A DNA stretch of 47,655 bases from Clostridia bacterium (GTDB taxonomy: Bacteria; Bacillota; Clostridia; Christensenellales; Aristaeellaceae): the NCBI GenBank assembly GCA_017464305.1, contig JAFUDS010000006.1:1-47655 (forward strand), read 5' to 3'. A program made the position numbers and the translations under genes. The notes below the pieces were generated by a model, which worked only from the letters and a program-made list of their open reading frames with translations, did not search any database and was not told where the DNA came from. Below are positions 26,338 through 42,587 of the stretch, piece by piece (position 1 is the first letter of the stretch; each line of letters begins with the position of its first letter).

Positions 26338-27735
26338 TCAGTTCTGCTGCAGCTCCCGATACGTCCGCAGAATCACGATCAAGGACAGAGCGAAGGTCAG
26401 CACATCCGCCACGGGGAAGGAATACAGGATTCCGTTCAGCGCGAACGCCAGGGGCAGCAGGATGGGCAGGAACACGCCGAAGATGATTTCACGCACCAGA
26501 GACAGGATCATGCTCTCCTTGGCCTTGCCCAGGGCCTGCAGGAAGATGAAGGTGCCCTTGTTCACCATGGCCAATGGCATCATGCACAGATAGATGCGGA
26601 AGGAGCGGATGGCGAACTGGGTGTAATACTCGCTTTCGTTGGCCGCGCCAAAGATGTTGATGAGCCCCCGGGGGAACACTTCCACAATGAACAGCGCCAC
26701 GAAGCCCAGAATCGCCTCCGCCGCCAGCAGATAGGTGAACAGGGTCTTCACCCGATCCTTCCGCTGGGCGCCGATGTTGTATCCCACCACCGGGATGCAA
26801 CCCGCGGAAAGCCCCACGGAGATGGAAATGGCGATCTGGAAGAATTTCATCACGATGCCCAGCACCGCCAGGGGAATCTGAGTATACTGAGGCTGGCCGA
26901 ACACGGGATCCAGCGCGCCCCACTTGGCGGTGGAGTTCTGCACCGCCGCCATAGAAACCACCAGGCTGGCCTGGCTCAGGAAGCTGGTAATTCCCAGGGG
27001 AATATACTGTTTCATGAGGTCCGGATACATCCCGAAGCTCTTCTTTTCCAGCTTCACGGCCTTCATATGGCACAGATACCAGATGGACAGCGCCGCGGTC
27101 AGTACCTGACCCAGCACCGTGGCAATGGCCGCGCCCATCATACCCATATGCAGGGGATAGATAAACAGCCAGTCCAGGATGATGTTGGTGATAGCTCCCG
27201 CCACGGTGGAAATCATGGCGAACCGTGGGCTGCCGTCGGACCGGATGATGGGATTCATGGCCTGGCCGAACATATAGAAGGGCATGCCCAGGGTGATCCA
27301 GAAGAAATATTCCTTCGCCAGGGCAAAGGTTTCCTCATTCACCCGGCCGCCAAACAGGGTCAGGATGGGCTCGGACAAGAGCAGGTACACCAGCGTCACA
27401 ATGATGCTGGACGCAATGGTCAGCACTACCGCGTTGCCGATGGTCCGATGGGCGTCCTGCTGATTCTTTTTACCTAGCAGAATGCTGACGAAGGCACAGG
27501 CGCCGTCTCCGATCATGACGGCGATGGCCAGGGCCAGCACCGTCATGGGGAACACGGTGGTATTGGCGGCGTTGCCATAGGAGCCCAGATAATCCGCGTT
27601 GGCGATGTAAATCTGGTCCACAATGTTATACAGCGCGGCCACCACCAGGGAGATAATGCAAGGGATAGCAAACTTGCGCATCAATTTGCCAGGGGTTTCC
27701 TTCACCAGGAAATCGTTGGATCTCAGTTCAGACAT
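26338..27735 (-). CDS. MATE-family efflux transporter
   Basis: The product is a 12-helix MATE exporter of about 465 residues: KETPGKLMRKFAIPCIISLV, VALYNIVDQIYIANADYLG, MIGDGACAFVSILLGKKNQQ and later SVGLSAGCIPVVGYNIGAQR. MATE proteins expel drugs or metabolites using Na+ or H+ gradients. I place the start at the ATG preceded by GGAAGGAGAGG. The reading frame also extends upstream without a stop through an Arg-rich 22-codon segment that lies within a terminator hairpin (27754-27801). This looks like a regulated leader rather than part of the transporter. Its promoter is at 27818-27846. Confidence 0.92.
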   Translation of the reverse strand: MSELRSNDFLVKETPGKLMRKFAIPCIISLVVAALYNIVDQIYIANADYLGSYGNAANTTVFPMTVLALAIAVMIGDGACAFVSILLGKKNQQDAHRTIGNAVVLTIASSIIVTLVYLLLSEPILTLFGGRVNEETFALAKEYFFWITLGMPFYMFGQAMNPIIRSDGSPRFAMISTVAGAITNIILDWLFIYPLHMGMMGAAIATVLGQVLTAALSIWYLCHMKAVKLEKKSFGMYPDLMKQYIPLGITSFLSQASLVVSMAAVQNSTAKWGALDPVFGQPQYTQIPLAVLGIVMKFFQIAISISVGLSAGCIPVVGYNIGAQRKDRVKTLFTYLLAAEAILGFVALFIVEVFPRGLINIFGAANESEYYTQFAIRSFRIYLCMMPLAMVNKGTFIFLQALGKAKESMILSLVREIIFGVFLPILLPLAFALNGILYSFPVADVLTFALSLIVILRTYRELQQN

Positions 27736-27753
27736 AGGTTCCTCTCCTTCCAC

Positions 27754-27801
27754 AAAAAAACAGCGGACCCTTCGCGTTTCGTATCTGCGAAGGGCCCGCA
27801 T
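27754..27801 (-). promoter_or_regulatory. Attenuator-like leader: terminator hairpin overlapping an Arg-rich leader ORF
   Basis: GCGGGCCCTTCGC (27799-27787) pairs over 13 bp, one G-U, with GCGAAGGGTCCGC (27775-27763) and is followed by TG and seven T (27760-27754). The hairpin lies between the promoter and the MATE ribosome binding site. The same bases from the ATG at 27801 encode MRALRRYETRRVRCFF in frame with MATE. A ribosome on this leader would prevent hairpin formation. It could also serve as the 3' terminator of the upstream amidohydrolase operon. Confidence 0.7.
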
Positions 27802-27817
27802 GTATCGTTTCGTCGAA

Positions 27818-27846
27818 ATTATAACCGATGCGGGCGTTCTTGCCCA
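27818..27846 (-). promoter_or_regulatory. Candidate promoter of the MATE leader
   Basis: Minus-strand TGGGCA (27846-27841), a 17-base spacer and a perfect TATAAT (27823-27818) would start transcription roughly 10 bp before the leader ATG at 27801. Confidence 0.6.
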
Positions 27847-27917
27847 TGGAAAGTCAGGCGCAGATCAGGCCGAATTTTCCATTTCGAAGGTGGGCAATGC
27901 TTGATATTCCATCCGTG

Positions 27918-28973
27918 TCAAGTCCCCTTTTCCAGATGATACAGCCTTTCCGCATTGCCGTGCAGGATCAGTTCCTTCTCTTCCTCCGAGATATCCAACC
28001 CGCGCACAAAATCCGCGCCCTCCAGCAGCCACACGGGCCGCACGGGATAGCTGGTACCAAACAGAATATGATCCGCTCCCAGGGCCTTCACCGCGCATTC
28101 CAGTTGATCCTTGCCCCAGGGCTGAGCATGGCTCATTTCGAAATACACATTGTTCTTCAGCTGCTCTACCACCAGCTCGTTGTCGTCCTTGAACCGGCTG
28201 ACGGCCTCCTGCACCTTGGGCTTCTTCGGGAACCACAGGCTGGTATAGGCGAAGAAGCCGCCGCCCAGCATGGAATGCACCAGCTTCACATTCGGATACT
28301 TCGTAAAGAACCCACTGAACAGCTCCCGGCCGATGGCCGTAGCCTGATCGATGCAGCGGCCATAGCTGCGGCGCAGATTGGTATAGGCCGTCAGGCTGTC
28401 GTACTGCACGGGCACCGGCGTATGGTGCACATAGCAGGTGACGCCTCGCTCGTTCAGATAGGCAAAGAAGGGCGCGAAGGCTTCATCATCCAAGTATAGG
28501 TTGCCATAATGGGCGGAGAGCTGCAGCCCACCAAAGCCCAGTTCATCCAGGCAGCGGTCGATCTCCCGGAACACGGCGGGTGTCCCCTGGGGAGGCACCA
28601 CGCCCAGCGCCGCCATGCGGCCGCCAGACTGTTTCACATGCTCCGCCATGCCATCGTTGAACAGGCGGCACATCTCCAGGCTCATCCACTCCTGCTGGCA
28701 GGAAAGCTTCAGCACCGCCCGATCGATTCCGGCCTGATCCATATCTTTCAGCTGCTTCTCCAGCACATAATCGCCCTGCACGTAGTTCAGGTTTTCGCTG
28801 CCCACGGGCTTCTCGATGACATATTGCTTCAGGCCCGTCTCCTGGTTCTCCTTAAGATACCCCTTGATGCCATACTGCACAGGCACCTCGGACAGAAACT
28901 TTTCCTTCAATTCCTCGTTGGTAAATAGTTCTTCCGGAAACCAATACAGATTAGCGTCGATCACCTTGCTCAT
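27918..28973 (-). CDS. Amidohydrolase-2 family protein with degenerate metal site
   Basis: The 351-residue protein has the TIM-barrel layout of the amidohydrolase-2 (ACMSD-like) family: KVIDANLYWFPEELF (3-17), RMAALGVVPPQGTPAV (119-134), GGLQLSAHYGNLYLDD (148-163), CYVHHTPVP (180-188), VKLVHSMLGGGF (229-240) and DHILFGTSYP (301-310). The HxH after the first strand, which normally binds the metal, is here Asn8 and Tyr10. The usual late Asp of GTDYP is Ser308. The His residues on strands 5 and 6 remain. It may be a metal-independent decarboxylase, hydratase or lyase, or a binding protein. The chosen ATG has AAGGAG upstream. It is the last gene of the large cluster. Confidence 0.85.
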   Translation of the reverse strand: MSKVIDANLYWFPEELFTNEELKEKFLSEVPVQYGIKGYLKENQETGLKQYVIEKPVGSENLNYVQGDYVLEKQLKDMDQAGIDRAVLKLSCQQEWMSLEMCRLFNDGMAEHVKQSGGRMAALGVVPPQGTPAVFREIDRCLDELGFGGLQLSAHYGNLYLDDEAFAPFFAYLNERGVTCYVHHTPVPVQYDSLTAYTNLRRSYGRCIDQATAIGRELFSGFFTKYPNVKLVHSMLGGGFFAYTSLWFPKKPKVQEAVSRFKDDNELVVEQLKNNVYFEMSHAQPWGKDQLECAVKALGADHILFGTSYPVRPVWLLEGADFVRGLDISEEEKELILHGNAERLYHLEKGT

Positions 28974-28992
28974 GATTATCGTCTCCTTCTCC

Positions 28993-29949
28993 TTATTTTT
29001 CATCATGGATTTTGTTGATGTCATACACAATGGCGCAGGGCGGGTTGCCATACATCCGCTTGGTGGTCACGGGGTGGTCCGTCCACAATACACTTTGTAT
29101 CTCCCCATCACTGCCCTTCTTCTGGTTTTTGGGGCCATCACCAGGATGGGGCAATTGTCGTTTCCATACGATGTTGCCCTGCTCGTCGATTTGCTGCCAG
29201 TTGTTAAATGGCGGATCCTCCCTGGGTTCTCCCTCCGCGCCGTTCAAAATCGCGTTGCAGTTATCCAGCATTTTTTGAACGATGTCATCATCAGCCCGGC
29301 CAGGGCCGCACCAAATTTCATCGTAATCCTGCCGGAAGGGCGCCAGCTTCTGCAGGAGTCGGACCCAATTCTCCACTGTCGTATTGATAGGTTTGCCAAA
29401 GGGCATGCCCAGCTCGTCTCCCGCGAACAGGAGCCGTTTCGCTCCATCCAAAAGCATAATGCTGCCTACGGCATGATCCGGCGTTTTGAACACCAGCAGA
29501 TCCCGCCCTTTCAGCGGGATGATATCCCCATCCTCCACAACCTGCACCTTATAATCCCTTGGAAAGTAAATTCCATCAAAGCTGGGAAAGGGGCGGGTGG
29601 CCAGGGGGACGGATTCCGCAGACATATACACCAAATCGAAATAGCCATCGTTGGCGGTATGGTCAAAATGATGATGGGTGTTCACAATCCGGGGCACATC
29701 CTGCCCAATCAAGTTTTTGCAGTATTCCCGGATATTCCCCGCGCCATAGCCACTATCAATCAGGATCGCGTCCCCTTCCTCCCCCTCCAGCAAGTAGGAG
29801 AAATCCCCGTCGGAGAGAATCTGCCAGGTTTTTGGCGCGATTTCCTTCACGCGATAGTAGGGCTCGCTCATGGGTGTGCGATTGCCTTCCTCATCCTCCA
29901 GGAGGATATTGCTCTTGCAGGAAAAATCAAACGGTTTTACATCTTTCAT
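28993..29949 (-). CDS. MBL-fold metallo-hydrolase
   Basis: A metallo-beta-lactamase-fold hydrolase of 318 residues with the zinc motif THHHFDH (His92, His94, Asp96, His97 by the HxHxDH rule), a later TPDHAVGSIML and LFAGDELGMPFGK carrying the bridging Asp. An N-terminal region (1-40) and a Trp/Pro-rich tail (EPREDPPFNNWQQIDEQG) extend the core. No signal peptide is visible. GGAGGGAAGGA precedes the chosen ATG. It lies between the Sel1-repeat and amidohydrolase genes. It is probably a hydrolase for a pathway thioester, lactone or ester (inference). Confidence 0.88.
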   Translation of the reverse strand: MKDVKPFDFSCKSNILLEDEEGNRTPMSEPYYRVKEIAPKTWQILSDGDFSYLLEGEEGDAILIDSGYGAGNIREYCKNLIGQDVPRIVNTHHHFDHTANDGYFDLVYMSAESVPLATRPFPSFDGIYFPRDYKVQVVEDGDIIPLKGRDLLVFKTPDHAVGSIMLLDGAKRLLFAGDELGMPFGKPINTTVENWVRLLQKLAPFRQDYDEIWCGPGRADDDIVQKMLDNCNAILNGAEGEPREDPPFNNWQQIDEQGNIVWKRQLPHPGDGPKNQKKGSDGEIQSVLWTDHPVTTKRMYGNPPCAIVYDINKIHDEK

Positions 29950-29990
29950 GTTCCTTCCCTCCATCTTCTTTCGTCCAATGGGATTCACGT

Positions 29991-30515
29991 TCATTTCACA
30001 TCCAGGCGTTCCAACGCGTCCATGGCAGGCTTCGCAATCTTATCCCCCCGCTGCGCGGAGATTCGATACCACCGGATGGCCTCCGCCAGATCCGGTGTTA
30101 CGCCAATCCCCTGCTCATAGATCACACCCAGGTGATACTGGCTGGTGATATCTCCTCGATCCGCGCCAGTCAGGAAAGCCTGCCGAGCCGCCTGGAGAGC
30201 CTCCTCGGAGGGGATTTTCCCCTCCAGGTACATGAGTCCCAGATATCGTGGTGCCTTCATATCCCCCTTCTCCGTGGCGGTTTCGAACCAGCGGCGGGCC
30301 TCCTCGTCCTTTTCCTGATGGAGCGCCAAGATTCCCATATTTGTCATGGCCCGGGGGCGCCCTGCCTCCGCCGCCACCTGACTGTAATGCAAGGCCAGCG
30401 CTTCATCCACCGGAACCTCGTTCCCGTGAATGTATTCCTCCCCCAGATGCTCCGCTGCCTCTGGATTTCCCGCGTCCGCTAAGCGCTTTAGCTCTGTAAT
30501 ATGAACTCCATCCAT
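29991..30515 (-). CDS. Sel1-repeat (TPR-like) protein
   Basis: The 174-residue protein is built of Sel1-like repeats of about 36 residues: AGNPEAAEHLGEEYIHGNEV, AGRPRAMTNMGILALHQEKD, KGDMKAPRYLGLMYLEGKIP and RGDITSQYHLGVIYEQGIGV. These helical hairpins mediate protein contacts. No signal peptide or enzyme motif is present. AAGGAG stands before the chosen ATG. It lies between the secreted flavin reductase and the MBL hydrolase. A terminator-like hairpin (30575-30599) separates it from the reductase, so its level may be lower than that of upstream genes. Confidence 0.85.
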   Translation of the reverse strand: MDGVHITELKRLADAGNPEAAEHLGEEYIHGNEVPVDEALALHYSQVAAEAGRPRAMTNMGILALHQEKDEEARRWFETATEKGDMKAPRYLGLMYLEGKIPSEEALQAARQAFLTGADRGDITSQYHLGVIYEQGIGVTPDLAEAIRWYRISAQRGDKIAKPAMDALERLDVK

Positions 30516-30574
30516 GGCTATTCTCCTTGTTGGTCGTTTTCGTTCCACATCCAATATTTACAGTGTAGAAAGCT

Positions 30575-30599
30575 AAAACTCCCCCGCGGAGCGGGGGAG
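30575..30599 (-). terminator. Terminator-like hairpin after the flavin reductase gene
   Basis: CTCCCCCGC (30579-30587) and GCGGGGGAG (30591-30599) form a perfect 9-bp stem with a 3-base loop. On the minus strand it is followed by only four T, so it may be a partial terminator within the cluster. Confidence 0.75.
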
Positions 30600-30664
30600 C
30601 GAGGATACGTGATTTAAAATCATCACGTCCAATCTTCGTTTGATTTATTCTCCGCAGCGCGTCC

Positions 30665-32446
30665 TCAGTTGCCCGCGATCTCCGCCGCGATTTCGTTGCC
30701 GGCCAGATAGCCGAACACGAAGGCGTCGCCCGTGCCGGAGCCGTCCACCCGCTTGCTGCCATGGAAGCCGCCGGTCACCTCGCCCGCCGCGTACAGGCCA
30801 GGAATCACGTTCTCCTCCTGGTCCAGCACCTGGGTCTTTTCGTTGATCAGCACGCCGCCCATCATGTAATGGGCGCCCACGCCGAAGGCATATCCATACA
30901 GCTTGCCTTCCACCTTCTTCAGGGTGAAGGGCAGCCGCTCAAACTGGCTGTCCGCCCCTGCGTCGCAGTCCGCGTTCCACTTTTCAATGGTTTCCGCCAG
31001 GGCCGCGCCGTCCAGCCCCAGCTGGGCTGCCAGCTCTTCCGCCGTGTCTCCGGACTTCACCAGGCCCCGGGCCTCCAACCGCTTCAGATCGTCGTTCAGA
31101 TCGCTTTCGCCAAAGATCACGAAGGCATGCTCCTGGGCCAGGGTCCCCTCGATGGAGGAATCAAAGCCCTCCGTGGTATACCGCTGGGCGTCCTGATTCA
31201 GGAAGAGGCCTGTGGTCATAAAGCCGCCTGGCATGCCCATGGGAGAGAGCCAAGTATCGCCCACCGGCACATGGGGAAACAGCTGCATCTCCGCCATGTC
31301 CACCGTCTTGGCGCCCACAGCTTCCGCCATCATGACGCCATCGCCAGTAGTGGGCGCCATCTCATCGGTAATCGCGTTCTTCAGGTCCGGGCGATAGGCC
31401 ACCACCATCTCATGGTTCTGGCCGAATCCGCCGGTGGCCAGCAGCACCGCTTTCCCGCTGAAGGTTACCTCGGAGCCATCCGCCGCCTTGGCCTTCACAC
31501 CGATCACCGCGCCGTTTTCATCCGTAATCAGCTCGGTCGCTTCCGTGTTCACATACAGCTTCACCCCCGCGCCGACGATGGCAGTGTTCAACGCCTTCAC
31601 CAGGGTGTTGGAGGTATAGCCATCCGCGTCCGCCCGGACCATGAACAGCTCGCTGCCGGAGGGATGATCCTCGCCCACGCTGGCCAGCGGATCCGCCGGA
31701 TCCACCTGGTCTCCGGTCTTACCGCTGAAATCAATTCCCAGGTTCTCCGCGAACCAATCCACGGCCTTGCCGCTGTTTTCCACATAGGCATTGACCAGGT
31801 TCTCCCGGCCACCCCACTGCATCTGGGCTTCCTTCAGCAGATCCTCCGTGGCATATTCCATACCCAGGGTTTCCTGCACCTTGGAAGCCGCCGCGTTAAT
31901 GCCCATCTGAGAGCACAGGCTGTTGCCGCCCACTACGCCAGATTTCTCGATCAGGATCACGGAGGCGCCCGCGTCCGCGGCCGTCTTGGCCGCGGTCAGA
32001 CCCGCGCCGCCCGCGCCTACGATGATAATGTCCGCCTCCGTCACGTCATATTCCGTTTGAGCCGCCGCGTTTTCCACCGGCACAGCCTTCAGGGCGCCCA
32101 CATCCCCGCCAGCCTGTTCCACGCAATCCTCCAGGGCCTCCATAAACGCGCCGGAGGACAGGGTCGCACCGGAGATCGCGTCCACGTCCAGAGTCTGATT
32201 CTTCAACACGACCGCGGTCAACTGCTCAATGGCCGTATCTCCCAGGGTGGGGGTCTCCTCATGGGTCACTTCAATGCCCGTGATGGCGCTGTCCGAGAAG
32301 GTGGCCGTCACGGTGACCTCCCCATTCCGCCCCATGGCGGTAGCACTGTAGGTACCGGGATTGGCAAAGCTATTCTCCGCCATTCCGGAGCTCATGCTCA
32401 ACAGCATGCTCCCTGCCAGCACCATCGAAATTACCTTCTTATTCAT
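30665..32446 (-). CDS. Secreted FMN/FAD flavin reductase (flavocytochrome c / urocanate-reductase type)
   Basis: The 593-residue protein has a signal peptide (MNKKVISMVLAGSMLLSMSS). Next is an FMN_bind domain (about 28-115) with DAISGATLSSG at 89-99, the motif where ApbE attaches FMN covalently. Then comes a fumarate-reductase-like FAD_binding_2 domain (137-590) with IIIVGAGGAGLTAA, GGNSLCSQMGINAA, LLATGGFGQN and GLYAAGEVTGGFHG. The motif GSKRVDGSGTGDAFVFGYLA ends the FAD domain. Relatives reduce fumarate, urocanate, acrylates or cinnamates outside the membrane using FMN-relayed electrons. There is no haem motif. The exact electron acceptor is unknown. In this cluster it would supply an anaerobic C=C reduction step (inference). 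Confidence 0.92.
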   Translation of the reverse strand: MNKKVISMVLAGSMLLSMSSGMAENSFANPGTYSATAMGRNGEVTVTATFSDSAITGIEVTHEETPTLGDTAIEQLTAVVLKNQTLDVDAISGATLSSGAFMEALEDCVEQAGGDVGALKAVPVENAAAQTEYDVTEADIIIVGAGGAGLTAAKTAADAGASVILIEKSGVVGGNSLCSQMGINAAASKVQETLGMEYATEDLLKEAQMQWGGRENLVNAYVENSGKAVDWFAENLGIDFSGKTGDQVDPADPLASVGEDHPSGSELFMVRADADGYTSNTLVKALNTAIVGAGVKLYVNTEATELITDENGAVIGVKAKAADGSEVTFSGKAVLLATGGFGQNHEMVVAYRPDLKNAITDEMAPTTGDGVMMAEAVGAKTVDMAEMQLFPHVPVGDTWLSPMGMPGGFMTTGLFLNQDAQRYTTEGFDSSIEGTLAQEHAFVIFGESDLNDDLKRLEARGLVKSGDTAEELAAQLGLDGAALAETIEKWNADCDAGADSQFERLPFTLKKVEGKLYGYAFGVGAHYMMGGVLINEKTQVLDQEENVIPGLYAAGEVTGGFHGSKRVDGSGTGDAFVFGYLAGNEIAAEIAGN

Positions 32447-32461
32447 GTGCTTTCCCTCCTT

Positions 32462-33238
32462 TTACACCAGGCTCAGACCGCCGCTGAGATCCAGCACGGT
32501 CCCGGTCACATAAGCCGATTCCTCGCTGGCCAGGAAGCAAATCGCCCCGGCCAGGTCTTCAGCCGTGCCCATTCTTCCCTGGGGAATGTAGGGCAGCAGC
32601 GCGTTCATATCCTTGAAGGGGGGCTCCCCCGGCCGAGCCGGGTGCGGAATGCGGGAAATCGCTCCCTTCTGGATGCAGTTCACATTGATCTTTTCCGAGG
32701 CTAGCCGAGCGGCGCAGTTGCGCATAAGCCCGACCACCGCTCCTTTGGCCACCGCGTTGGCGAAGCTTTCCAGCCGGCCGCCCCGAACGCCCTCCACCGT
32801 GGTCATGAAAATCACCCTTGGGGCGGCGCTCTTCCGCAGGTAGGGCAGCGCGGTTTTCAGCATGTGATAGCTGCCGCCCATCAGCATCCCGACTTCCTTG
32901 ATCAGCTGATCCTCCTCCACGGAGTCTATGCTGTCCTCAAAGCCATCCCCGCCGGTGTTGGTGATCACCACATCAATGGACCCGAAGCGCTCCGCCACCT
33001 GGCGGAACACCTCCGCGTCCGGAATCGGCGGATTCTGGGATTTTCCATCCTGCACGGCGATGCACTTTCCCGGCAGGTTCATGGCTTCAATTTCATCCAG
33101 GAGCCGCTGGGCCTGAGCCGGCTGATGGGTCATCATGGCCACGTTCATTCCGCCAGCCAGCAGCGCCTTCAGCGCTTCCACCCCGTCCCCGCCGCTGGCG
33201 CCCGCGAAGATACAGGTTCTTCCTTTTAATGTTTGCAT
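32462..33238 (-). CDS. SDR-family protein with replaced catalytic Tyr
   Basis: The 258-residue Rossmann protein has FAGASGGDGVEAL (11-23) at the nucleotide site, VVITNTGGDGF (90-100) in place of NNAG, FMTTVEG (144-150) at the Ser/Thr position, and a typical end TGTVLDLSGG. The YxxxK signature reads NAVAK: Lys165 is kept but the Tyr is Asn161, so ordinary SDR proton transfer is not possible. It may have another chemistry or a binding role. GAGGAG precedes the chosen ATG. It is tightly packed between the alpha/beta hydrolase gene and the flavin reductase gene. Confidence 0.87.
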   Translation of the reverse strand: MQTLKGRTCIFAGASGGDGVEALKALLAGGMNVAMMTHQPAQAQRLLDEIEAMNLPGKCIAVQDGKSQNPPIPDAEVFRQVAERFGSIDVVITNTGGDGFEDSIDSVEEDQLIKEVGMLMGGSYHMLKTALPYLRKSAAPRVIFMTTVEGVRGGRLESFANAVAKGAVVGLMRNCAARLASEKINVNCIQKGAISRIPHPARPGEPPFKDMNALLPYIPQGRMGTAEDLAGAICFLASEESAYVTGTVLDLSGGLSLV

Positions 33239-33248
33239 GGGTCTCTCC

Positions 33249-34547
33249 TCACACAAATTTCTTCATCCACTGGGCAATGTAATCAAACAGCGCGCCTTCC
33301 GTATCTCCAAAGGGGCCGTATACCTTTTCCGCGTCCCGGTTGGGCACGAAGTTGTGGCCGGCGCCCCGGACAAAGGCAATGGACTTGTCCTGAATCTTAG
33401 TGGCATGCTCATAGATCATCTCCGCTGCCAGATACTCATATCCGCCGGTCATGCCCATGAACAGGGAGGGCACGGAGATATGCTGGATGTTGCCGATGGG
33501 GGAAGCATAGCTGCTATCCCAGTCCACGCCCTTGACCTCGTCCTCCGTGACGGCAAAATCCTCCGTGGTGCGAATGGCCTGGGAGCTGAGGAAGCCCTTG
33601 ATGGTATTCTTGTTCACCCCCATGAAATAGGTGTTGGAGAAGCAGCGATCCATCTCCGGGGTCCGCAGGCTGCTGATCCGCTCATGGGTGATGGTTCCAT
33701 CCCCGTGCAACAGATCGTACTCGCCCTTGGTGTGGGCCAGCAGATGCAGATCCTCCGGCAGCAGCCGGTTGTTGGGCTTGGGCTGGTCCGCCGCGGCGAT
33801 CATGAAGGGCTCGTCGTCCACATAGTTCCCTTCCCCCTTCCGGATTTTCTCCAGCCGGTCCAGGGCGAAGTCGATCAGCCGTTCGTTCCGCTCCCGCTGG
33901 GCCTGCTGATACATCCGAATAAACTCGGGGGAATAATTGGCGCCATCCTTGTCATAGCCATTGGCGGGATCGAAGATGTCATACTTCGGATCCAGCTTCA
34001 TGCCATTTCCTTCCTCCAGCACCGCGGGATCCAGGCTCAGCAGGGACATGACCGCGTTGCCATAATTGGCGTCCAGCAGCAGCAGCCCGTCCGCCGGCTC
34101 CAAGGGCTCCCTTACGGTGCACTGATAAATCATCTTCTCCCCCTGGAAAACCTGGGGGCCGTTTTCCGCAATGGCCTGATAGGCGGTCATCAGGGTGGCG
34201 CCGCCGCTATGGCCCATGAGCACCACCTTTTCAATGCCGGGCTGGACCTTCATGTACTTGACCATCTTGCTCAGATGCTCGCACTTCCGGTCGATTTCGC
34301 CGCCCACCCAGGCGTCCACCGCCATGACATGGTATCCCCGCTTCGCCAGCTCCGGCGCGATGTTGAAGCCCATGTAGTTCTGGTCACAATGCATGACCAT
34401 CACCGCAATGCTGCTGACCTCCGTAGGGGTCACCGGCGCGTAATACATCGCCATGTGGTGGCCCATGTCCATGACCACCAGATTTTCCGTAATGGTTTTA
34501 TTCACTTCCTGTTCTACCTGTCCGCCGCGATCGATTTTGATGATCAT
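33249..34547 (-). CDS. Alpha/beta hydrolase
   Basis: The 432-residue protein shows an alpha/beta-hydrolase core: AVMVMHCDQNYMGFNIAPEL (a HxxxxNYxG oxyanion region), GYHVMAVDAWVGGE, the nucleophile elbow VVLMGHSGGATLM with Ser114, and a late RGAGHNFVP carrying the probable catalytic His398. A large insertion (about 200-330) forms a cap. No signal peptide is present, so it probably acts on imported substrate. AAGGAGGAG lies before the chosen ATG. It follows the ABC importer and PH-like genes. An ester or C-C bond hydrolase acting on the imported compound is the best guess. Confidence 0.87.
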   Translation of the reverse strand: MIIKIDRGGQVEQEVNKTITENLVVMDMGHHMAMYYAPVTPTEVSSIAVMVMHCDQNYMGFNIAPELAKRGYHVMAVDAWVGGEIDRKCEHLSKMVKYMKVQPGIEKVVLMGHSGGATLMTAYQAIAENGPQVFQGEKMIYQCTVREPLEPADGLLLLDANYGNAVMSLLSLDPAVLEEGNGMKLDPKYDIFDPANGYDKDGANYSPEFIRMYQQAQRERNERLIDFALDRLEKIRKGEGNYVDDEPFMIAAADQPKPNNRLLPEDLHLLAHTKGEYDLLHGDGTITHERISSLRTPEMDRCFSNTYFMGVNKNTIKGFLSSQAIRTTEDFAVTEDEVKGVDWDSSYASPIGNIQHISVPSLFMGMTGGYEYLAAEMIYEHATKIQDKSIAFVRGAGHNFVPNRDAEKVYGPFGDTEGALFDYIAQWMKKFV

Positions 34548-34569
34548 TCGGTCGCTCCTCCTTTTATTT

Positions 34570-35010
34570 TCATTGATTTTCGATCCAGAATTGGTGCAGC
34601 TGCCGATAGATCGCCTGGGTGGTTTCCGCGTTTTCCGCATTAAAGATGGCCGTTTTCTCCCCGTCCCGGGCAATCATGTAGGTAGGAAAGCGTTCCGACA
34701 CATAGGCCTCGTACACCCCGAGGGACTCGTTCTCCCAGGTGCCATAATGATATCCCCCCCACAGTCGGCCGCCCTCCACCGGGCGTCCATAGTCGCTCTC
34801 CGTCCCTTCGTACAGCCGCAACTCCTCCAGGGTATCCAGGGAGAAGACCGCGCTGGTATGCTTCGAGCCATAGAAGCCGAAAACCCTTTTCTCCGCGGAA
34901 AAGCGGAAGCTGGGGCTGCCCTGGGAGACGATGAAATAGTACCCCGTGGCCAGAATCAGCACGAAGGCCAGAAAAATCGTGCTTCGTTTTTTGCTCTTGT
35001 CCGCCAGCAT
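34570..35010 (-). CDS. Membrane-anchored hypothetical protein, PH-like domain
   Basis: The 146-residue protein has one N-terminal membrane helix (STIFLAFVLILATGYYFIV, about 10-28) and an outside domain that looks like a bacterial PH-type barrel, with YEAYVSERFPTYMIARDGE and a C-terminal helix TTQAIYRQLHQFWIENQ. No catalytic motif is visible. GGAGAGAG precedes the ATG. It sits between the oppF-type ATPase and the alpha/beta hydrolase in the same direction. The function is unknown. Confidence 0.75.
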   Translation of the reverse strand: MLADKSKKRSTIFLAFVLILATGYYFIVSQGSPSFRFSAEKRVFGFYGSKHTSAVFSLDTLEELRLYEGTESDYGRPVEGGRLWGGYHYGTWENESLGVYEAYVSERFPTYMIARDGEKTAIFNAENAETTQAIYRQLHQFWIENQ

Positions 35011-35055
35011 GGTCTCTCTCCTTTCCTCATGATGTTGCCAAGCGCCGTAGTCGCT

Positions 35056-36015
35056 TTATTCCCCGATTTCGTGAATTCGGCAGCAGGACACGAAATGTCC
35101 GGCGCTGACCTCCTCCAGCTTCTGGGGCTGCTGGCAGGCTTCCGTGGCATAGGGGCAGCGGGCCGCGAACCGGCAGCCCGGCTTGGGATTGATGGGGCTG
35201 GTGATTTCGCCCTTCAGCCGAATCCGCTGCATGGGATGATGAATATCCGTGCTGGGAATGGCAGACAGCAGCGCCTTGGTATAGGGGTGCAGCGTATGGG
35301 CGAAAAGCTCCTTGGTCGGCGCTTTTTCCACCAGCTGGCCCAGATACATGACGCAGATATTATCGCTGATGTGCTTCACCACGCTCAGGTCATGGGTCAC
35401 GAACATATAGGCCATGCCCATCTTCTGCTGCAGCTCCTGCAATAGGTTCAGCACCGCCGCCTGAATGGATACATCCAGGGCGGAAACCGGCTCGTCGCAG
35501 ACGATAAACTCCGGATTCAGCGCCAGAGCCCGGGCGATACACACCCGCTGGCGACGGCCGCCATCCAGCTCATGGGGATAAGCCTCCCGCAGGCGCTCGT
35601 CGATGCCCACCAGCTCCATCAGCTTGTTGGCCTCCGCCTTCAGCTCCGCCTTGGAGTGGAAGCGGCCGGACATCTTCAAAGGCTCAATGACGGTGTTCTC
35701 AATCCGCAGCCGGGGGTTCAGGCTGGAGTAAGGATCCTGGAAAACGATTTGCATCTTTTCCCGCAGGGCCTTCAGCTCCGCCTTGTTCACATGGGTAATA
35801 TCCTTGTCGTTCAGGAATATTTTTCCGTCCGTGCTTTCCAGCAGATGGATGATGGTCCGGCCCAGGGTGGATTTTCCGCAGCCGGATTCTCCCACCACCC
35901 CCAGGGTCTCCCCCCGGGCGATGGTGAAGCTGACGTCATCCACGGCATGGTTGGTACCCGCGGGAACCTTGAAATATTTCTTCAGATGCTCTACGCGAAT
36001 CAGTTCATTCGCCAT
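35056..36015 (-). CDS. Peptide/nickel-type ABC transporter ATPase (OppF/DppF-like)
   Basis: The 319-residue ATPase has Walker A GESGCGKST (42-50), the Q-loop VFQDPYSSLNP (91-101), Walker B IVCDEP (171-176) with SALDVS, and the C-terminal oligopeptide-transporter tail with a Cys cluster (PGCRFAARCPYATEACQQP). The signature reads LDGGRRQR rather than LSGGQRQR: Asp151 replaces the Ser that contacts ATP. This change occurs in some Opp-type subfamilies. It begins 2 bp after the stop of the OppD-like gene and pairs with it. Confidence 0.93.
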   Translation of the reverse strand: MANELIRVEHLKKYFKVPAGTNHAVDDVSFTIARGETLGVVGESGCGKSTLGRTIIHLLESTDGKIFLNDKDITHVNKAELKALREKMQIVFQDPYSSLNPRLRIENTVIEPLKMSGRFHSKAELKAEANKLMELVGIDERLREAYPHELDGGRRQRVCIARALALNPEFIVCDEPVSALDVSIQAAVLNLLQELQQKMGMAYMFVTHDLSVVKHISDNICVMYLGQLVEKAPTKELFAHTLHPYTKALLSAIPSTDIHHPMQRIRLKGEITSPINPKPGCRFAARCPYATEACQQPQKLEEVSAGHFVSCCRIHEIGE

Positions 36016-36017
36016 GA

Positions 36018-37004
36018 TCAGGCCCCTCCTTTCAAGGTTCCGGGTTCGTTGCGGTTAAAGCAGGCGCACAGGTGTCCCGGGGAAAGCTCCTTCATCTCCG
36101 GCTTCCGGCGGCGGCATTCCTCCGTCGCGTAGGGGCACCGGGGCGCGAAGGCGCATCCCTCCGGCAGGTCCGTGGGGTCCGGGGGCATGCCCGCGATGGG
36201 CTTCAGCTTCTCCCCCTCCGCCGTCATGTTGGGCAGAGACTCAAACAGCCCGATGGTATAGGGATGGGTCGGATGATCAAAGATATCCTCCCGGGTGCCG
36301 CTTTCCACGATGGATCCCGCATAGATCACCGCCACGTTTTCGCAGGTCTGGGCGATGACGCCCAGATCGTGGGTGATCAGGATCATGGAGGTTTGGAATT
36401 TCTCCTTCAGCTCGTTGATCAAATCCAGCACCTGGGCCTGAATGGTCACGTCCAGAGCTGTGGTGGGCTCGTCCGCCAGCAGCAGCTCCGGATTGCAGGC
36501 CAGCGCCATGGCGATAACCACCCGCTGCTTCATGCCGCCGGAGAACTGATGAGGATACTCTCCGTAGCGTTCCGCGGGGATGCCTACGGTTTCCAGCATC
36601 TCCCCCGCCTTTTTCATCCCCGTCTTGATGTCATAATCATTGTGCAGGGTCAGCACTTCCAGAATCTGGTCGCCCACGGTCATCAGGGGATTCAGGGCGG
36701 TCATGGGGTCCTGGAAAATCATGGCGATCTTCCCGCCCCGGACCTGCAGCATCTCGCTCTCCGGCTTCTTCAGCAGGTCCTCCCCGTCCAGCAGGATCTC
36801 TCCCCGCTTGATCTTCGCGGGTGGATCCGGCAGGATGCGCAAAATCGCCTTAGCGATGGTGGTCTTTCCCGCGCCAGTTTCTCCCACCAGGCCCAGGGTA
36901 TGCCCCTTCCGGACCTCCAGGGAAACACCGTTTACCGCGTGGACGGTACGGCCGGCCTGGGTGTAAATGACTTCCAGGTCTTTCACCTTCAGAAAATCAG
37001 ACAT
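36018..37004 (-). CDS. Peptide/nickel-type ABC transporter ATPase (OppD/DppD-like)
   Basis: The 328-residue ATPase has Walker [10 protein letters not shown] (41-49), a Q-loop [11 protein letters not shown], a canonical signature FSGGMKQRV, Walker [15 protein letters not shown] and the oligopeptide-family C-terminal extension with [13 protein letters not shown]. It forms a heterodimer with the next gene to power the permeases. Because its signature is intact, the dimer would have one canonical and one variant composite ATP site. AAGGAGG precedes the ATG. Confidence 0.94.
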
Positions 37005-37020
37005 TCTCCGTACCTCCTTC

Positions 37021-37887
37021 TTAGTCTCTCAGCTTGGGATCCAGCGCGTCCCGAACGCCGTCTCCCATCAGGTTGATGGCGAACACCGTCAGGGCGATGG
37101 CAATCCCGGGAACCAGCAGCAGATGGGGATTGGTCCGGATATAGGTCCGGCCCTCGGTCAGCATGGCGCCCCATTCCGGGTTCGGGGGCTGAATGCCCAG
37201 TCCGATATAGGACAGGCCCGCGGCCATAATCATGGTGGAGCCGATGCCCATGGTGGTGGTTACGATGACCGGCTGAATCACGTTGGGCAGCAGGTGCTTA
37301 AACATAATCACCGGGCTGGAGCAGTTGATGGATTGCGCCGCTTCGATGTACTCCTTGCTGCGTTCGGAAAGGATCTGGCCTCGAATCATCCGCACCGTTC
37401 CGGGAATGCCGCCCACCGTCAGGGCGATCACCGTCGCGAAGAATCCGGAACCCATGGCGTTGGAAACCAGAATGCACAGCATGGTGCCGGGCAGCGCGGA
37501 CCAAACATCCATGAACCGCATGATCACCGTCTCGGTTACGCCGCCGAAATATCCGCCGATAGAGCCAATAATGATACCCAGGGCCGCGCCGAACAGGGAG
37601 GCACAGATGCCCAGGGCCAGGGAGTACCGGCCGCCATAGAGCAGACGGGTCAGCATATCCCGGCCCATGCTGTCGCAGCCCAGCAGATGCTCCTTGGAAG
37701 GCCCGGCGTACATATTGAACAGGTCCACATCGTTCACGCCATACGGAGAAAGGAAGGGACCAATCACACAAGCCAACACGATGAACAGCAGCAGGAATAC
37801 TCCCAGCTTGGAGGAGAAGGATTTGGTCGCCCGGCGGAAAAACTCGCCCAGGGCGCTGGATTTCTTATATCCTTTTTGCTTTGCCAT
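37021..37887 (-). CDS. Peptide/nickel-type ABC permease (OppC/DppC-like)
   Basis: The 288-residue inner-membrane permease has an N-terminal helix (LGVFLLLFIVLACVIGPFLS), further helices and the cytoplasmic coupling loop EAAQSINCSSPVIMFKHLLP, the EAA motif of importer permeases. The early GCDSMGRDMLTRLLYGGR is typical of DppC. It starts 2 bp after the stop of the OppB-like gene, so translation is coupled. Confidence 0.94.
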   Translation of the reverse strand: MAKQKGYKKSSALGEFFRRATKSFSSKLGVFLLLFIVLACVIGPFLSPYGVNDVDLFNMYAGPSKEHLLGCDSMGRDMLTRLLYGGRYSLALGICASLFGAALGIIIGSIGGYFGGVTETVIMRFMDVWSALPGTMLCILVSNAMGSGFFATVIALTVGGIPGTVRMIRGQILSERSKEYIEAAQSINCSSPVIMFKHLLPNVIQPVIVTTTMGIGSTMIMAAGLSYIGLGIQPPNPEWGAMLTEGRTYIRTNPHLLLVPGIAIALTVFAINLMGDGVRDALDPKLRD

Positions 37888-37889
37888 GC

Positions 37890-38837
37890 TTATTTCACCT
37901 TCTTTCCCTTGCTATACTGCGCCTTGATCCGGGGATCCAGGAAGGCGTAACACAGATCCATGATCAGCACCGCAATGGAGGCGAACAGCGCGAAGAAAAT
38001 CACGCAGGCCCGCACCACCGGATAGTCATGCTGATTGACGCCGGACAGCAGATAAGCCCCAACGCCGGGGATGGAGAACACCGTCTCAATCACCGGAGAA
38101 CCGGCGATCACGCCCGCCAGGCCGCCGCCCACGCCCGTGATGATGGGCATCATGGCATTGGGGAGCATATGCTTCCGGACGATGATTCCCTCCTTCTGGC
38201 CCTTGGAACGAGCGGTAGTCACAAAGTCCGCCCGAATGACCTCCAGCATGGAGGACCGGGCCTGCCGCGCGTTAATGGCGATGCCGCCGAAGCTGGAGGC
38301 CAGAATGGGCATCACATAGCATTTCCAGCTGTCGATACCGTAGGCCGGCAGCCAGTTCAGCTTCAGGGAGAACAGCAGGATCATCAGCAGCGCCACGAAG
38401 AAGTCCGGCGCGGAGACGAAGACCATGGCGATGATCATTACCAGGGAATCCTGCCAGCGGCCTTCATGGGTTCCGGCAAAGATGCCCAGCAGCGTGCCGA
38501 ACACCACGTTCAGCACCATGGCCGCCAGCCCGACGATCAGCGTCCGGGGCAGCCGCACGCCCAGCTCGGAAATGACGGAGCTGGAGAAAACCCAGCTTTC
38601 GCCGAAATCCAGGCGGACAAACGTGTTGTACATATAGGATCCCAGCTGGCCCAGGAAGGATTTATCCAGCCCCATAACATGGCGCTTGATTTCGATGGTT
38701 TCCTGGGAAGCCTCCTTGCCCAGCAGCAGGGAAGCCGGATCGCCGGGGACCAAATAGGTCAGCGTAAAAATGACCAGACCGGCACACCAGAGGATGACGA
38801 TCATGCCAAGGATACGCTTCAGGATGTACCGTGACAT
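37890..38837 (-). CDS. Peptide/nickel-type ABC permease (OppB/DppB-like)
   Basis: The 315-residue permease begins MSRYILKRILGMIVILWCAG, the classical OppB/DppB start, and keeps YLVPGDPASLLLG. The EAA-like loop is DFVTTARSKGQKEGIIVRKH, and the C-terminus has VLIMDLCYAFLDPRIK. It pairs with the OppC-like protein. Upstream lies a strong hairpin (38862-38889) separating it from the binding-protein gene, as often seen where the binding protein must be made in excess. Confidence 0.94.
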   Translation of the reverse strand: MSRYILKRILGMIVILWCAGLVIFTLTYLVPGDPASLLLGKEASQETIEIKRHVMGLDKSFLGQLGSYMYNTFVRLDFGESWVFSSSVISELGVRLPRTLIVGLAAMVLNVVFGTLLGIFAGTHEGRWQDSLVMIIAMVFVSAPDFFVALLMILLFSLKLNWLPAYGIDSWKCYVMPILASSFGGIAINARQARSSMLEVIRADFVTTARSKGQKEGIIVRKHMLPNAMMPIITGVGGGLAGVIAGSPVIETVFSIPGVGAYLLSGVNQHDYPVVRACVIFFALFASIAVLIMDLCYAFLDPRIKAQYSKGKKVK

Positions 38838-38861
38838 AGTTTTCCTCCTTTTTTCACAAAT

Positions 38862-38889
38862 CAGGGGGAGCCGTAACCGGCTCCCCCTG
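38862..38889 (-). terminator. Intergenic stem-loop between binding-protein and permease genes
   Basis: CAGGGGGAGCCG and CGGCTCCCCCTG form a perfect 12-bp stem with a TAAC loop. On the minus strand it lacks a proper T run (TGATTTGTG). It more likely protects the upstream mRNA end or partly terminates than stops transcription fully. Confidence 0.8.
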
Positions 38890-38930
38890 CAGGGTTTTCA
38901 GCTACGAAAGCCTCAGACCGTTTTCTATTC

Positions 38931-40490
38931 TTATTGTCCTACGAAGGTGGCAGCGCCGGGGGTGTAATATCCTTCGCGATAGAACATCTCGGCGATGTCC
39001 TTGGTGTACACCAGGCCCGTGGAAATCTTGGCGATGGGATAGATGTAAGCATGCTCCACATCGTGGTCCAGCACCGCGCGCATATGCTCCGCGTCATGGG
39101 TAGCGTCGGCCACAGCCGCTTCGTACAGCTCCTGCAGCTCCGGATCGTCGATCAGGGAGAAGGTGATGCCGTTGTTCACTTCGTTGTCGAAGATCAGATG
39201 CCAGGAACCCACCATGTTGGGGCCGCCCAGCTGCTGCACCATCACGTCCCACTCATCGGAATGCTGGGGGCTGGTAATGGTGTTGTACACATCGGGGGTC
39301 ACCAGGCTGATCTTGGAATTGATGCCCGCCTGCAGCAGCATGACCTGAATCATCTGGCAAGCCTTGGAGGTTACTTCGGAGTTGTTGGAAATCAGCACGA
39401 TCTCCCGTCCGTCGTATCCGGAGCTGGCCACATATTCCTTGGCCTTGGCCAGATCATAATCAGTAATGAAGGTGCCCGTCATTTCCAGGGACTCGTCATA
39501 GTCGGAGAAGGCTTCCGTACCGATGGTGGTGGCGGGGCTGAAGGAGCCGCCCATGGCCTGGCACAGCACGCCATTGTCCACGGCGTAGAAGATAGCCTTG
39601 CGCAGATCCTCGTTGATGGTCTGGGCATTGGGGGCCATCAGGTAATAGTCGCCCTGGGTGACGATTTCCACGGTGTAGTTCGCAGACTGGGCGCCATTCT
39701 GGAATTCGTCCAGCATGGACAGGGGCACATAGCTGCACACGTCCAGGTTGCCCTGCTCCAGGCCGATCACGGCGGTGGAAGCTTCGGCCACCACGTCCAT
39801 CTCCAGGGTCTGGACCGTGGCGGTGTGGCGCTTGGACAGCTCGGGGTGATTCAGTCCCCAGTATTCATCGTTCGCTTCCATCACCAGCTTGGAGCCGGGC
39901 ACGAAGGAAGTGATCTTGTAGCAGCCCGTGCCGCAAGCATCCTGGGTCATGCCGTTGTGATCGTTGTAGGCCTTCTCGCTCCAGATCAGGGTCCGGGCCA
40001 GGGGGAATTCCAGCTCGGCGATGGCCGGGGGAACATCTTTCCAGTGGATGTAGAAGGTGTAATCATCGATGGGCTCGATGGAATCAAAGAAGTCAAAGCG
40101 CATGGCCTGGCCCCGGTTGATGATCCACTCGAAGCAGTACTTGACGTCGCTGGAGGTAATGTTGTTGCCATCCCAGTCATAGATGTCGTTGTTCAGGGTC
40201 ACCTTCCAGGACTTGCCGCCGTCCACCTCTTCATATTCCTTGGCCATGGCGGGCATCAGCTTTCCGGAAGAATCGTCCGCGAAATCGAACAGGGACTCGT
40301 ACACACCGTAGATCCAGAAATACCGGGAACCCAGGTTGGTGTCGTCTCCCTCCAGATCCTGAGGATCGGTGTCGATGGCCACCACCAGCTTGTCATAGCG
40401 GCCATTGTCCAGCAAGGTGCCCGCCATCGCGCTGCCCATCACGGCGCACAGAAGGCAAAGGGCCAACAACAGAGATACCAGTTTCTTCAT
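38931..40490 (-). CDS. ABC transporter substrate-binding protein, family 5 (OppA/DppA-like)
   Basis: The 519-residue protein has a signal peptide (MKKLVSLLLALCLLCAVMGS, probable cleavage after AMA) and an SBP_bac_5 body: DTDPQDLEGDD, SLFDFADDSSGKLMPAMAKE, the family motif TLNNDIYDWDGNNITSSDVK, and DACGTGCYKI. Proteins of this family bind peptides, nickel or small glycosides and aromatics outside the membrane. GGAGGAAC precedes the chosen ATG. It is first in the cluster, so it defines the imported substrate, which cannot be named from sequence. Confidence 0.93.
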   Translation of the reverse strand: MKKLVSLLLALCLLCAVMGSAMAGTLLDNGRYDKLVVAIDTDPQDLEGDDTNLGSRYFWIYGVYESLFDFADDSSGKLMPAMAKEYEEVDGGKSWKVTLNNDIYDWDGNNITSSDVKYCFEWIINRGQAMRFDFFDSIEPIDDYTFYIHWKDVPPAIAELEFPLARTLIWSEKAYNDHNGMTQDACGTGCYKITSFVPGSKLVMEANDEYWGLNHPELSKRHTATVQTLEMDVVAEASTAVIGLEQGNLDVCSYVPLSMLDEFQNGAQSANYTVEIVTQGDYYLMAPNAQTINEDLRKAIFYAVDNGVLCQAMGGSFSPATTIGTEAFSDYDESLEMTGTFITDYDLAKAKEYVASSGYDGREIVLISNNSEVTSKACQMIQVMLLQAGINSKISLVTPDVYNTITSPQHSDEWDVMVQQLGGPNMVGSWHLIFDNEVNNGITFSLIDDPELQELYEAAVADATHDAEHMRAVLDHDVEHAYIYPIAKISTGLVYTKDIAEMFYREGYYTPGAATFVGQ

Positions 40491-40546
40491 CTTGTGTTCC
40501 TCCTTTTTTCTTTTGCGAAAAACTTCTTTTCGCTGTTTCTGGAGAA

Positions 40547-40555
40547 AGTATAGCA
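40547..40555 (-). promoter_or_regulatory. Candidate extended -10 promoter of the importer cluster
   Basis: On the minus strand TGC followed by TATACT (40552-40547) lies 57 bp before the binding-protein start. The -35 region is poor, so an activator is likely. Confidence 0.5.
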
Positions 40556-40640
40556 CGGACTTTTCCTTCCCCGTGCACCGGAAAATGGATGCTTTGTCCC
40601 GGTTTTTGCATCATTGGGTAGTTATTTATCCATTTTAGAC

Positions 40641-40667
40641 AAAATAAAAGAGCCCCCGCAGGGACTC
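40641..40667 (-). terminator. Terminator of the LysR/membrane-protein unit
   Basis: On the minus strand GAGTCCC (40667-40661) pairs with GGGGCTC, including one G-T pair, and is followed by TTTTATTTT. It lies 20 bp after the stop at 40688 and separates this unit from the importer cluster. Confidence 0.7.
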
Positions 40668-40687
40668 CTTTCCGGGACTTGCGCTAT

Positions 40688-41398
40688 TTACTTTCCGCGG
40701 CGAAAAATGCCTTCACTCCTTTCGTTCTCGATGGGGACGCCGTCCTCCGGCGCCTTCTCCCCGCTTTCCTCCTGAGTGTAGGGAAGGTTCGTCTCCATTC
40801 GCACCATCAGCATCGCCAGGGCCGCCCCCAGGGTGAAGGCCCCCAGCGTCATCCACAGGCTTCTGTACAGTCCCGCGTTGGCCGGGCTCAGGAAGTAATC
40901 GATCACCGTCGCCAGAAAATCCAGCCCAAAGGCCACCGCCAGCCACTTCCCGTATCGCCGCAGCGCCAGGGAGGATACCCTGTAATCATTGACCGTCATT
41001 CTTTCCGGCAGGAAGAGGTAATTCACCGCCAGGGTATAAAGCATCCAGGCCAACAGGCACAGGGTCGCCACCTCCGGCAGCGCCACATAGAGCGCCCGCC
41101 CCGCACCTCCCTGGCCATAGGCCGCCAGGGCCACGCAGCCCGCCATGATGAAAAAGAGAATCAAATAGCAGATTCGCAGCCAGATTCGATTTTTCCGCGG
41201 CAGATCCTGCCTGTATACCGTGCCCGTATAAACCCGGAGGATTCTGGTTTTTCCCCGCTCATCCGTCCTTTTGGTTTCCGTATAGCCTTCAAAATATCGA
41301 TGGTAGGCTCCTCCCTGCCAACTGCGGGTATCCCGATCCTCCAGGGCCTTTCGCTGCAGCTCCCTGTTTTTCCGCTTCGCCCAGTCCTTGATTGCCAT
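40688..41398 (-). CDS. Four-helix membrane protein, hypothetical
   Basis: The 236-residue protein has a basic N-terminus (MAIKDWAKRKNRELQRKALE), then four hydrophobic helices at about 75-95, 105-128, 150-170 and 180-200, for example LRICYLILFFIMAGCVALAA. The tail is acidic and charged. No family is recognised. It begins 15 bp after the LysR stop, so the two are probably cotranscribed. It may be a membrane partner of the regulated pathway. Confidence 0.7.
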   Translation of the reverse strand: MAIKDWAKRKNRELQRKALEDRDTRSWQGGAYHRYFEGYTETKRTDERGKTRILRVYTGTVYRQDLPRKNRIWLRICYLILFFIMAGCVALAAYGQGGAGRALYVALPEVATLCLLAWMLYTLAVNYLFLPERMTVNDYRVSSLALRRYGKWLAVAFGLDFLATVIDYFLSPANAGLYRSLWMTLGAFTLGAALAMLMVRMETNLPYTQEESGEKAPEDGVPIENERSEGIFRRGK

Positions 41399-41413
41399 CT
41401 TTCTTCTTGCCCC

Positions 41414-42493: not shown

Positions 42494-42510
42494 TTTCGGG
42501 ACAATCCCCC

Positions 42511-42516: not shown

Positions 42517-42587
42517 TTGGTTTGATTTTTTCCATAAACTACCGGTATAATGCAATCAGAAATGAAGGAGAGGAAGGAGCCCTGACC

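Follow-up and report, generated by a model that had tools for sequence, protein, structure and literature searches.

What is taken up and broken down by a gene cluster in which a peptide/nickel-type ABC importer stands beside hydrolases and reductases with altered active sites? This question is raised by a 47,655-nucleotide stretch of DNA from a Clostridia bacterium of the family Aristaeellaceae (assembly GCA_017464305.1, contig JAFUDS010000006.1; the window below), in which the cluster spans about positions 26,338-45,896, a broader range than the 27,918-40,490 given in an earlier note on this DNA. Our analysis points to a modular cluster that imports and catabolises acylated phenolic beta-glucosides, with galloyl-type esters as the best-supported example, a reading to which we give a probability of about 0.47. 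Many plant polyphenols are transformed by anaerobes of the rumen and gut and, to our knowledge, few genes for this are known; a recurring gene set with two rare marker proteins offers a testable handle on it. A literature search at the level of titles and abstract openings, with most subscription journals outside its scope, found no title on this gene set. The genes on which the argument chiefly turns are:

33,249-34,547, minus strand: ABH, an alpha/beta hydrolase and the core marker gene (DUF1749, 25 bits; a longer frame starts at 34,673)
32,462-33,256, minus strand: SDR, a short-chain dehydrogenase/reductase (adh_short_C2, 101 bits) with Asn at the catalytic Tyr position
27,918-28,973, minus strand: AH, an amidohydrolase-2 protein with the aromatic-decarboxylase (ACMSD/LigW) fold and changed metal-site residues (Amidohydro_2, 103 bits)
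28,993-29,994, minus strand: MBL, an MBL-fold hydrolase (Lactamase_B, 69 bits; HxHxDH intact)
26,338-27,801, minus strand: a MATE-family exporter (MatE, 113 bits)

A scan of genome contigs for ABH gave 22 further loci, found in Hungatella hathewayi WAL-18680, in Kineothrix alysoides and, for the other 20, in metagenome-assembled genomes. ABH and SDR shared the locus in 21 of the 22, with the SDR directly 3' of ABH except in L028, and the sole ABH locus lacking an SDR (L025) ends inside ABH. The order in L026 and L027 was AH, ABH, SDR, solute-binding protein, permeases and ATPases. Inside the 22 loci AH was found in 6, the flavin reductase described below (FCC) in 4, GH3 in 3, MBL in 2 and the tannase in 1; counted by genome, AH was present behind all of L014-L028 (15 of 15), behind none of L029-L035 (0 of 7) and in neither genome with a distant ABH (0 of 2; G514 and G302). 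Genes in the fetched loci were called with our own amino-acid-composition score, and small genes may be missed or misplaced. Furthermore, 12 separately fetched AH loci held an MBL homolog in 10 cases (43-66% identity), ABC-importer genes in 8 and a MATE homolog in 6; three of them (L052, L055 and L059) also hold or adjoin ABH, and Hungatella has three AH loci (L026, L059 and L060). Three pairs of loci (L014/L052, L021/L056 and L022/L054) are most likely the same contigs, and the first pair, from a roe deer rumen relative, carries nearly the same gene set as the window. From these counts, the window seems to join two modules in one row, with a hairpin at 30,600 between them. The recurrence of parts of the same set in 22 loci and in further loci also argues for a cluster beyond chance. 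The earlier note had proposed a search for conserved co-occurrence and had named homologs scattered without clustering as the contrary outcome; the ABH-SDR linkage (21 of 22 loci) and the presence of AH in 15 of 15 against 0 of 9 genomes speak for the former. Both markers are rare as well: ABH (E 1e-20) and AH (E 1e-60) each occurred in 3 of 391 Clostridia genomes, both together only in the window's genome, and single-protein searches across the order matched only this genome (1 of 248).

The same comparisons showed that the unusual active sites are shared. In the SDR the catalytic Tyr is replaced by Asn167, in a column seen in two alignments, and Lys171 is retained; NxxxK stands in 24 of 24 rows (at least 53% identity) in place of the classical YxxxK, and Ser or Thr is kept at the usual Ser site, which bears out the Tyr-less SDR of the earlier note. 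FabG-type SDRs resemble this protein in sequence family and in the Lys, but it differs from them by the Asn and by an altered N-terminal glycine motif (by eye). AH belongs by fold and sequence family to the ACMSD/LigW metal-dependent decarboxylases, and the rebuilt active site ascribed to it earlier was confirmed: Met235 occupies the column of the catalytic His (strand 6) and Ser308 that of the ligand Asp (strand 8), both conserved in the cluster rows. In ACMSD these residues are His228 and Asp294 (PMC11650718). The N-terminal strand of AH reads DANLYW (N-x-Y) where the HxH ligands (His9 and His11 of ACMSD) are expected, these columns being inferred, as the PDB alignments begin near residue 70; AH thus differs from the ACMSD/LigW/gamma-resorcylate decarboxylase group by its replaced ligand Asp and catalytic His, and probably in the HxH motif too. 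Because they are conserved among relatives, neither the Tyr to Asn change in the SDR nor the metal-site changes in AH are errors, and both proteins would be useful cases of a fold kept while its catalytic centre is replaced. ACMSD itself can tautomerise oxaloacetate (PMC11650718), which makes a proton-moving, non-hydrolysing relative such as AH plausible, but the same paper suggests a possible role for the metal-bound water in that reaction.

MBL kept HxHxDH in 13 of 13 rows. In ABH, GHSGG and His398 were invariant across the 15 rows of alignment A3, which excludes L024 (stop codon); the L025 locus is cut. ABH matched Abhydrolase_1 under the Pfam cut-off and had no match in NCBIfam or, up to E 0.1, among PDB sequences. 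Foldseek placed it with PHB depolymerase and with esterases, the best match having E 1.5e-8; as a guide to the substrate the fold search was set aside, giving generic esterases only.

The two genes on the opposite strand point to the kind of compound that is handled:

42,522-44,228, plus strand: GH3, a glycosidase or phosphorylase (Glyco_hydro_3, 207 bits, cut-off 27; longest open reading frame, TTG start)
44,241-45,896, plus strand: tannase of subtype B (NCBIfam tannase_B, 344 bits, cut-off 300)

Aligned to 4j0g, the tannase keeps the Ser163/Asp419/His451 triad and the galloyl contacts Lys343, Glu357 and Asp421, roles described in PMC4233993, and it is predicted to hydrolyse galloyl esters. 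It has no signal peptide by eye. It shares family, triad and galloyl-binding residues with the subtype B tannase of Lactiplantibacillus plantarum, but is diverged, aligns in two pieces because its middle part differs, and lies within a larger import cluster. A second tannase_B protein (599 bits) adjoins AH in the Hungatella locus L060. GH3 homologs were found in L014, L026 and L028. A beta-phosphoglucomutase gene lies 3' of GH3 in L026 (237 bits, cut-off 189), GH3 is followed by the tannase and then by beta-phosphoglucomutase (234 bits) in L014, and L028 has a beta-phosphoglucomutase homolog 3' of GH3. This arrangement suggests release of beta-glucose 1-phosphate, that is, phosphorolysis of a beta-glucoside.

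Some relatives of ABH and AH in other settings also lean towards aromatic compounds. A paralogous cluster in the window's own genome (L012; contig C30, 62,001-82,000) contains MATE, an ABH of 43% identity, an ABC importer, a degenerate SDR, LysR and, between ABH and the ABC genes, two PhlG-type hydrolases of PF18089, a family which we take to contain C-C hydrolases of acylphloroglucinols. In a plasmid search with ABH (60 records, three loci examined; 19 walnut-type Agrobacterium records are alike and one was examined), the ABH relatives on Agrobacterium plasmids from walnut and rose (34.5 and 34.7%) sit in esterase clusters at a distance of 7-10 kb from genes for 4-oxalomesaconate tautomerase and aldolase, and the walnut plasmid has an annotated tannase. 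The gallate-pathway genes and tannase of these pAt plasmids are thus akin to our cluster through an ABH relative 7-10 kb away, but that pathway cleaves the ring aerobically, and neither of the two amidohydrolases on the rose plasmid is close to AH (29% at best). Two carboxylesterases flank the ABH relative on the walnut plasmid, and a 613-aa protein of the window (15,049-16,890, minus strand) is 29 and 37% identical to them.

Two more distant AH relatives come from a search in which 8 of 250 records were considered and H66 and H69 examined. One in Thioclava (50%) adjoins a flavin monooxygenase gene and a FAH-family gene, with hpaD 5 kb off, and one in Enterococcus raffinosus (56.5%) lies three genes before a beta-glucoside PTS, with two neighbours resembling a ceramidase-like protein. 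This protein of about 450 aa (ceramidase-like by eye; L014 564-1919, minus strand, and homologs) is AH-linked from Clostridia to Enterococcus and recurs next to AH in several of the fetched AH loci; it matched nothing in Pfam or NCBIfam, and homolog grouping placed no protein of the window with it. The AH relative of L072 is followed, two genes away, by an FCC-like protein (31%). Another, in L073 (1-3424 and 11,539-17,051), is surrounded by methyltransferase and corrinoid-like proteins, a setting like that of O-demethylation systems (by eye). Kineothrix alysoides carries AH, ABH, SDR and the ABC genes consecutively, with a BD-FAE-type esterase two genes before AH. When plasmids were searched with SDR and MBL, all matches listed were distant relatives.

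The remaining features of the cluster, including those for uptake, regulation and extracytoplasmic reduction, are:

38,931-40,490, minus strand: family-5 solute-binding protein (SBP_bac_5, 180 bits)
37,890-38,837, minus strand: ABC importer permease B (BPD_transp_1)
37,021-37,887, minus strand: ABC importer permease C (BPD_transp_1 and OppC_N)
36,018-37,004, minus strand: ABC importer ATPase 1 (ABC_tran and oligo_HPY)
35,056-36,015, minus strand: ABC importer ATPase 2 (ABC_tran and oligo_HPY)
34,570-35,010, minus strand: k1, a protein of 146 aa (hydrophobic stretch at the N terminus)
30,665-32,446, minus strand: FCC, an FMN_bind and FAD_binding_2 reductase (Pfam; FAD_binding_2, 226 bits; apparent signal peptide by eye)
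29,991-30,554, minus strand: Sel1-repeat protein (Sel1, 75 bits)
40,688-41,398, minus strand: membrane protein (by eye)
41,414-42,349, minus strand: LysR-type regulator (HTH_1 and LysR_substrate, Pfam)
30,578-30,600, minus strand: terminator-like hairpin between the Sel1 and FCC genes (10-bp stem, 8 GC pairs, T-rich tail; pattern match only)
40,646-40,671, minus strand: terminator-like hairpin between the membrane-protein and solute-binding-protein genes (pattern match only)

The family-5 (peptide/nickel) importer is complete in make-up, with SBP_bac_5, two permeases and two oligo_HPY ATPases. Solved relatives of its binding protein include the agrocinopine-binding AccA (E 6e-18), the top match (E 2e-18) being a solute-binding protein without a name; in NCBIfam it reached 81 bits with the NikA model against a cut-off of 393, and the oligopeptide and glutathione models also lay far under cut-off. 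FCC scored 285.2 with the TIGR01813 flavocytochrome c subfamily model, whose cut-off is 285.45. It shares FAD_binding_2 and the equivalents of R544 and H504 with the flavocytochrome c/urocanate reductase group, but differs by Phe for R402, a non-His residue for H365, the FMN_bind domain and the lack of a haem domain in Pfam, these residue numbers being those we take to apply. Arg402 is the acid (proton donor) of fumarate reductases; the position was aligned to flavocytochrome c3, and the other four rows also have Phe. With FCC present only in the window and in 4 of the 22 ABH loci, and with this Phe, extracytoplasmic C=C reduction, which the earlier note had set beside uptake and hydrolysis, is optional and not supported as a core step.

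Uptake and ester or glycoside hydrolysis of a phenolic, proposed in the same note, found support in the tannase residues, the beta-phosphoglucomutase behind GH3 in relatives and the aromatic or gallate settings of some ABH and AH relatives. If the cluster does serve acylated phenolic beta-glucosides, LysR would control it, the family-5 importer would carry the compound into the cell, the tannase would take off galloyl groups and GH3 would free glucose. ABH, the Tyr-less SDR, AH and MBL would act on the aglycone or acyl part, both by hydrolysis and by ring chemistry of a non-redox or reductive kind. The product would leave through the MATE pump, and the secreted FCC, as an add-on, could dispose of electrons by passing them to an unsaturated product outside the cell. 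For import and hydrolysis the families are well known; we infer the central chemistry, as well as the substrate class, the order of the steps and product export, rather than observe them directly. A more specific proposal, which we hold tentatively and with more doubt than belief, is that AH, the NxxxK SDR and ABH form a new enzyme set for O2-free breakdown of acyl-phenols or phenolic esters: AH would perform proton transfer (tautomerisation, hydration or decarboxylation) in a metal-free ACMSD-type barrel, the SDR would, like dienoyl reductases, reduce or bind a C=C or enol, and ABH would cleave the resulting bond. If true, this set would be a common, undescribed gut route for plant polyphenols. 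The homologs in Hungatella and Kineothrix sit in named genomes.

Several observations weigh against a phenolic substrate or against the strength of the linkage. The split between 15 and 7 loci was drawn after the result was known, ABH identity (58-60%) fails to separate L026-L028 from L029-L035, and many of the metagenome-assembled genomes are close relatives, so that the counts are not independent events. Neither the tannase (1 of 22 ABH loci) nor GH3 (3 of 22) marks the core. AH and ABH also occur singly: G424 and G497 have AH, and G302 (L041) and G514 (L040) have a distant ABH without the rest. Both are absent from three sampled genomes of the same genus. We hold the phenolic reading less firmly because the gallate genes lie 7-10 kb from the Agrobacterium ABH, not adjacent to it, and because MATE is found in 6 of 12 AH loci; a Roseomonas plasmid with an ABH relative (32%) has no gallate gene among its annotated neighbours. 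In addition, beta-phosphoglucomutase, UbiD and PF04199 were not found in the window's genome, which is 68.6% complete and thus shows no known pathway that would take gallate further. When known phloroglucinol and gallate degradation genes were tried as candidates, ApbE was the other one sought there and was weak (25.5 bits, 26.3 with neighbours, cut-off 25.6), with matches of E 1e-53 or better in 6 of 7 relatives tested. In the anaerobic phloroglucinol pathway of Clostridium scatologenes an SDR reduces the phenol and a hydrolase opens the ring, its cyclohydrolase resembling isatin hydrolase (PMC10470551). Our cluster is like it in having an SDR and a hydrolase. The apparent difference is in the cyclohydrolase: PF04199, the family to which such cyclohydrolases are assigned, had 0 matches in the window's incomplete genome.

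The same doubts feed the alternative that survives best, a possible if less favoured one, in which the cluster at its core handles a plant cell-wall sugar in acylated, acid or lactone form instead of a phenolic, and the tannase and phenolic neighbours were added locally. In L021-L025, FMN_dh, Gfo/Idh/MocA and MFS_2 genes lie upstream of ABH where other loci have ABC genes, and L029-L035 have YdjC, an unassigned gene (k3) and SDRs of 53-55% in common. Variants carry the YdjC deacetylase and another protein with a GQSHNG motif, a gluconolactonase-like lactonase and two aldo-keto reductases, as well as 2-hydroxyacid enzymes, and a GH115 gene is nearby in L018. Such genes tell against a single phenolic substrate, and some variants fit acylated sugars or lactones. 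However, AH has an aromatic-decarboxylase fold, its Thioclava relative has aromatic-catabolism neighbours, the paralogous cluster holds PhlG-type hydrolases and gallate genes lie 7-10 kb from the Agrobacterium ABH, all of which speak against this alternative.

A detoxification role, in which ABH, SDR and AH alter plant or microbial toxins that get into the cell and MATE expels them without their use as food, is less likely. The sporadic distribution would suit this, as would the MATE homologs (64-90%) that adjoin, or lie one gene from, AH or ABH in nine loci (L023, L024, L025, L028, L052, L054, L055, L056 and L057); the dedicated importer, GH3 with beta-phosphoglucomutase, and the PTS and MFS_2 importers of variants speak instead for uptake for carbon. 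AH and SDR have both lost family-defining catalytic residues, as expected of dead scaffold or regulatory relatives that leave the chemistry to ABH, MBL, GH3 and the tannase, but the replacing residues are conserved, as are many others, and the SDR keeps Lys171 and Ser or Thr at the Ser site, which makes this improbable. Chance neighbours in an ordinary peptide/nickel transport region, an idea that could draw on the broad binding-protein family and its best NCBIfam matches to nickel and peptide models far under cut-off, are contradicted by the recurrent linkage over many genomes and the 15 of 15 against 0 of 9 co-occurrence of AH, and hardly merit belief.

As to layout, the minus strand reads LysR, membrane protein, solute-binding protein, permeases B and C, ATPases 1 and 2, k1, ABH, SDR, FCC, Sel1, MBL, AH and MATE, with GH3 and the tannase on the plus strand upstream of LysR. 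The genes of the earlier note were all present with their positions and strands, and Pfam agreed with their families; its LysR facing GH3 and a tannase-like esterase held as well, the latter passing NCBIfam tannase_B and LysR and GH3 diverging across 211 bp (with the LysR start chosen here). Its count of twelve genes matched the 11 named within 27,918-40,490 together with one that it did not list, the 146-aa k1. New with respect to that note are the MATE exporter, which appears to belong to the cluster, the apparent two-module build, k1 and the finding that the unusual active sites are conserved. Same-strand gaps range from -8 to 45 bp, except between permease B and the solute-binding protein (93), FCC and Sel1 (110), AH and MATE (116), and membrane protein and solute-binding protein (197). 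Because of the hairpins at 30,600-30,578 and 40,671-40,646, a single transcript for the minus-strand genes is undemonstrated; 19.5 kb contained 33 terminator-like patterns, compared with 18.9 in shuffled sequence, and an individual hairpin is therefore no proof in itself.

Homologs of k1 were found in 7 other loci, 6 of them with the gene between ATPase 2 and ABH, and a frame of L014 was also grouped with it; k1 has no match in Pfam or NCBIfam, nor has the membrane protein, whose homologs lie upstream of the ABC genes in L014-L018, L020 and L028. LysR homologs (41-58% identity) were found in L014, L016-L018 and L020-L025, and in L060 Sel1 repeats are fused to an EstA-like Ig domain. Five kb upstream of the distant ABH of L040 lie genes for UbiD, a UbiX-type flavoprotein and a small third protein (2662-5182). 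Next to the cluster, an AAA_14/DUF4143 protein of the window (45,972-47,288, minus strand) has homologs of 46-49% near the cluster in L017, L018, L019 and L040. On its other side, positions 21,214-25,053 hold an MMPL transporter and then a repeat-rich protein of 583 aa that appears to carry a signal peptide.

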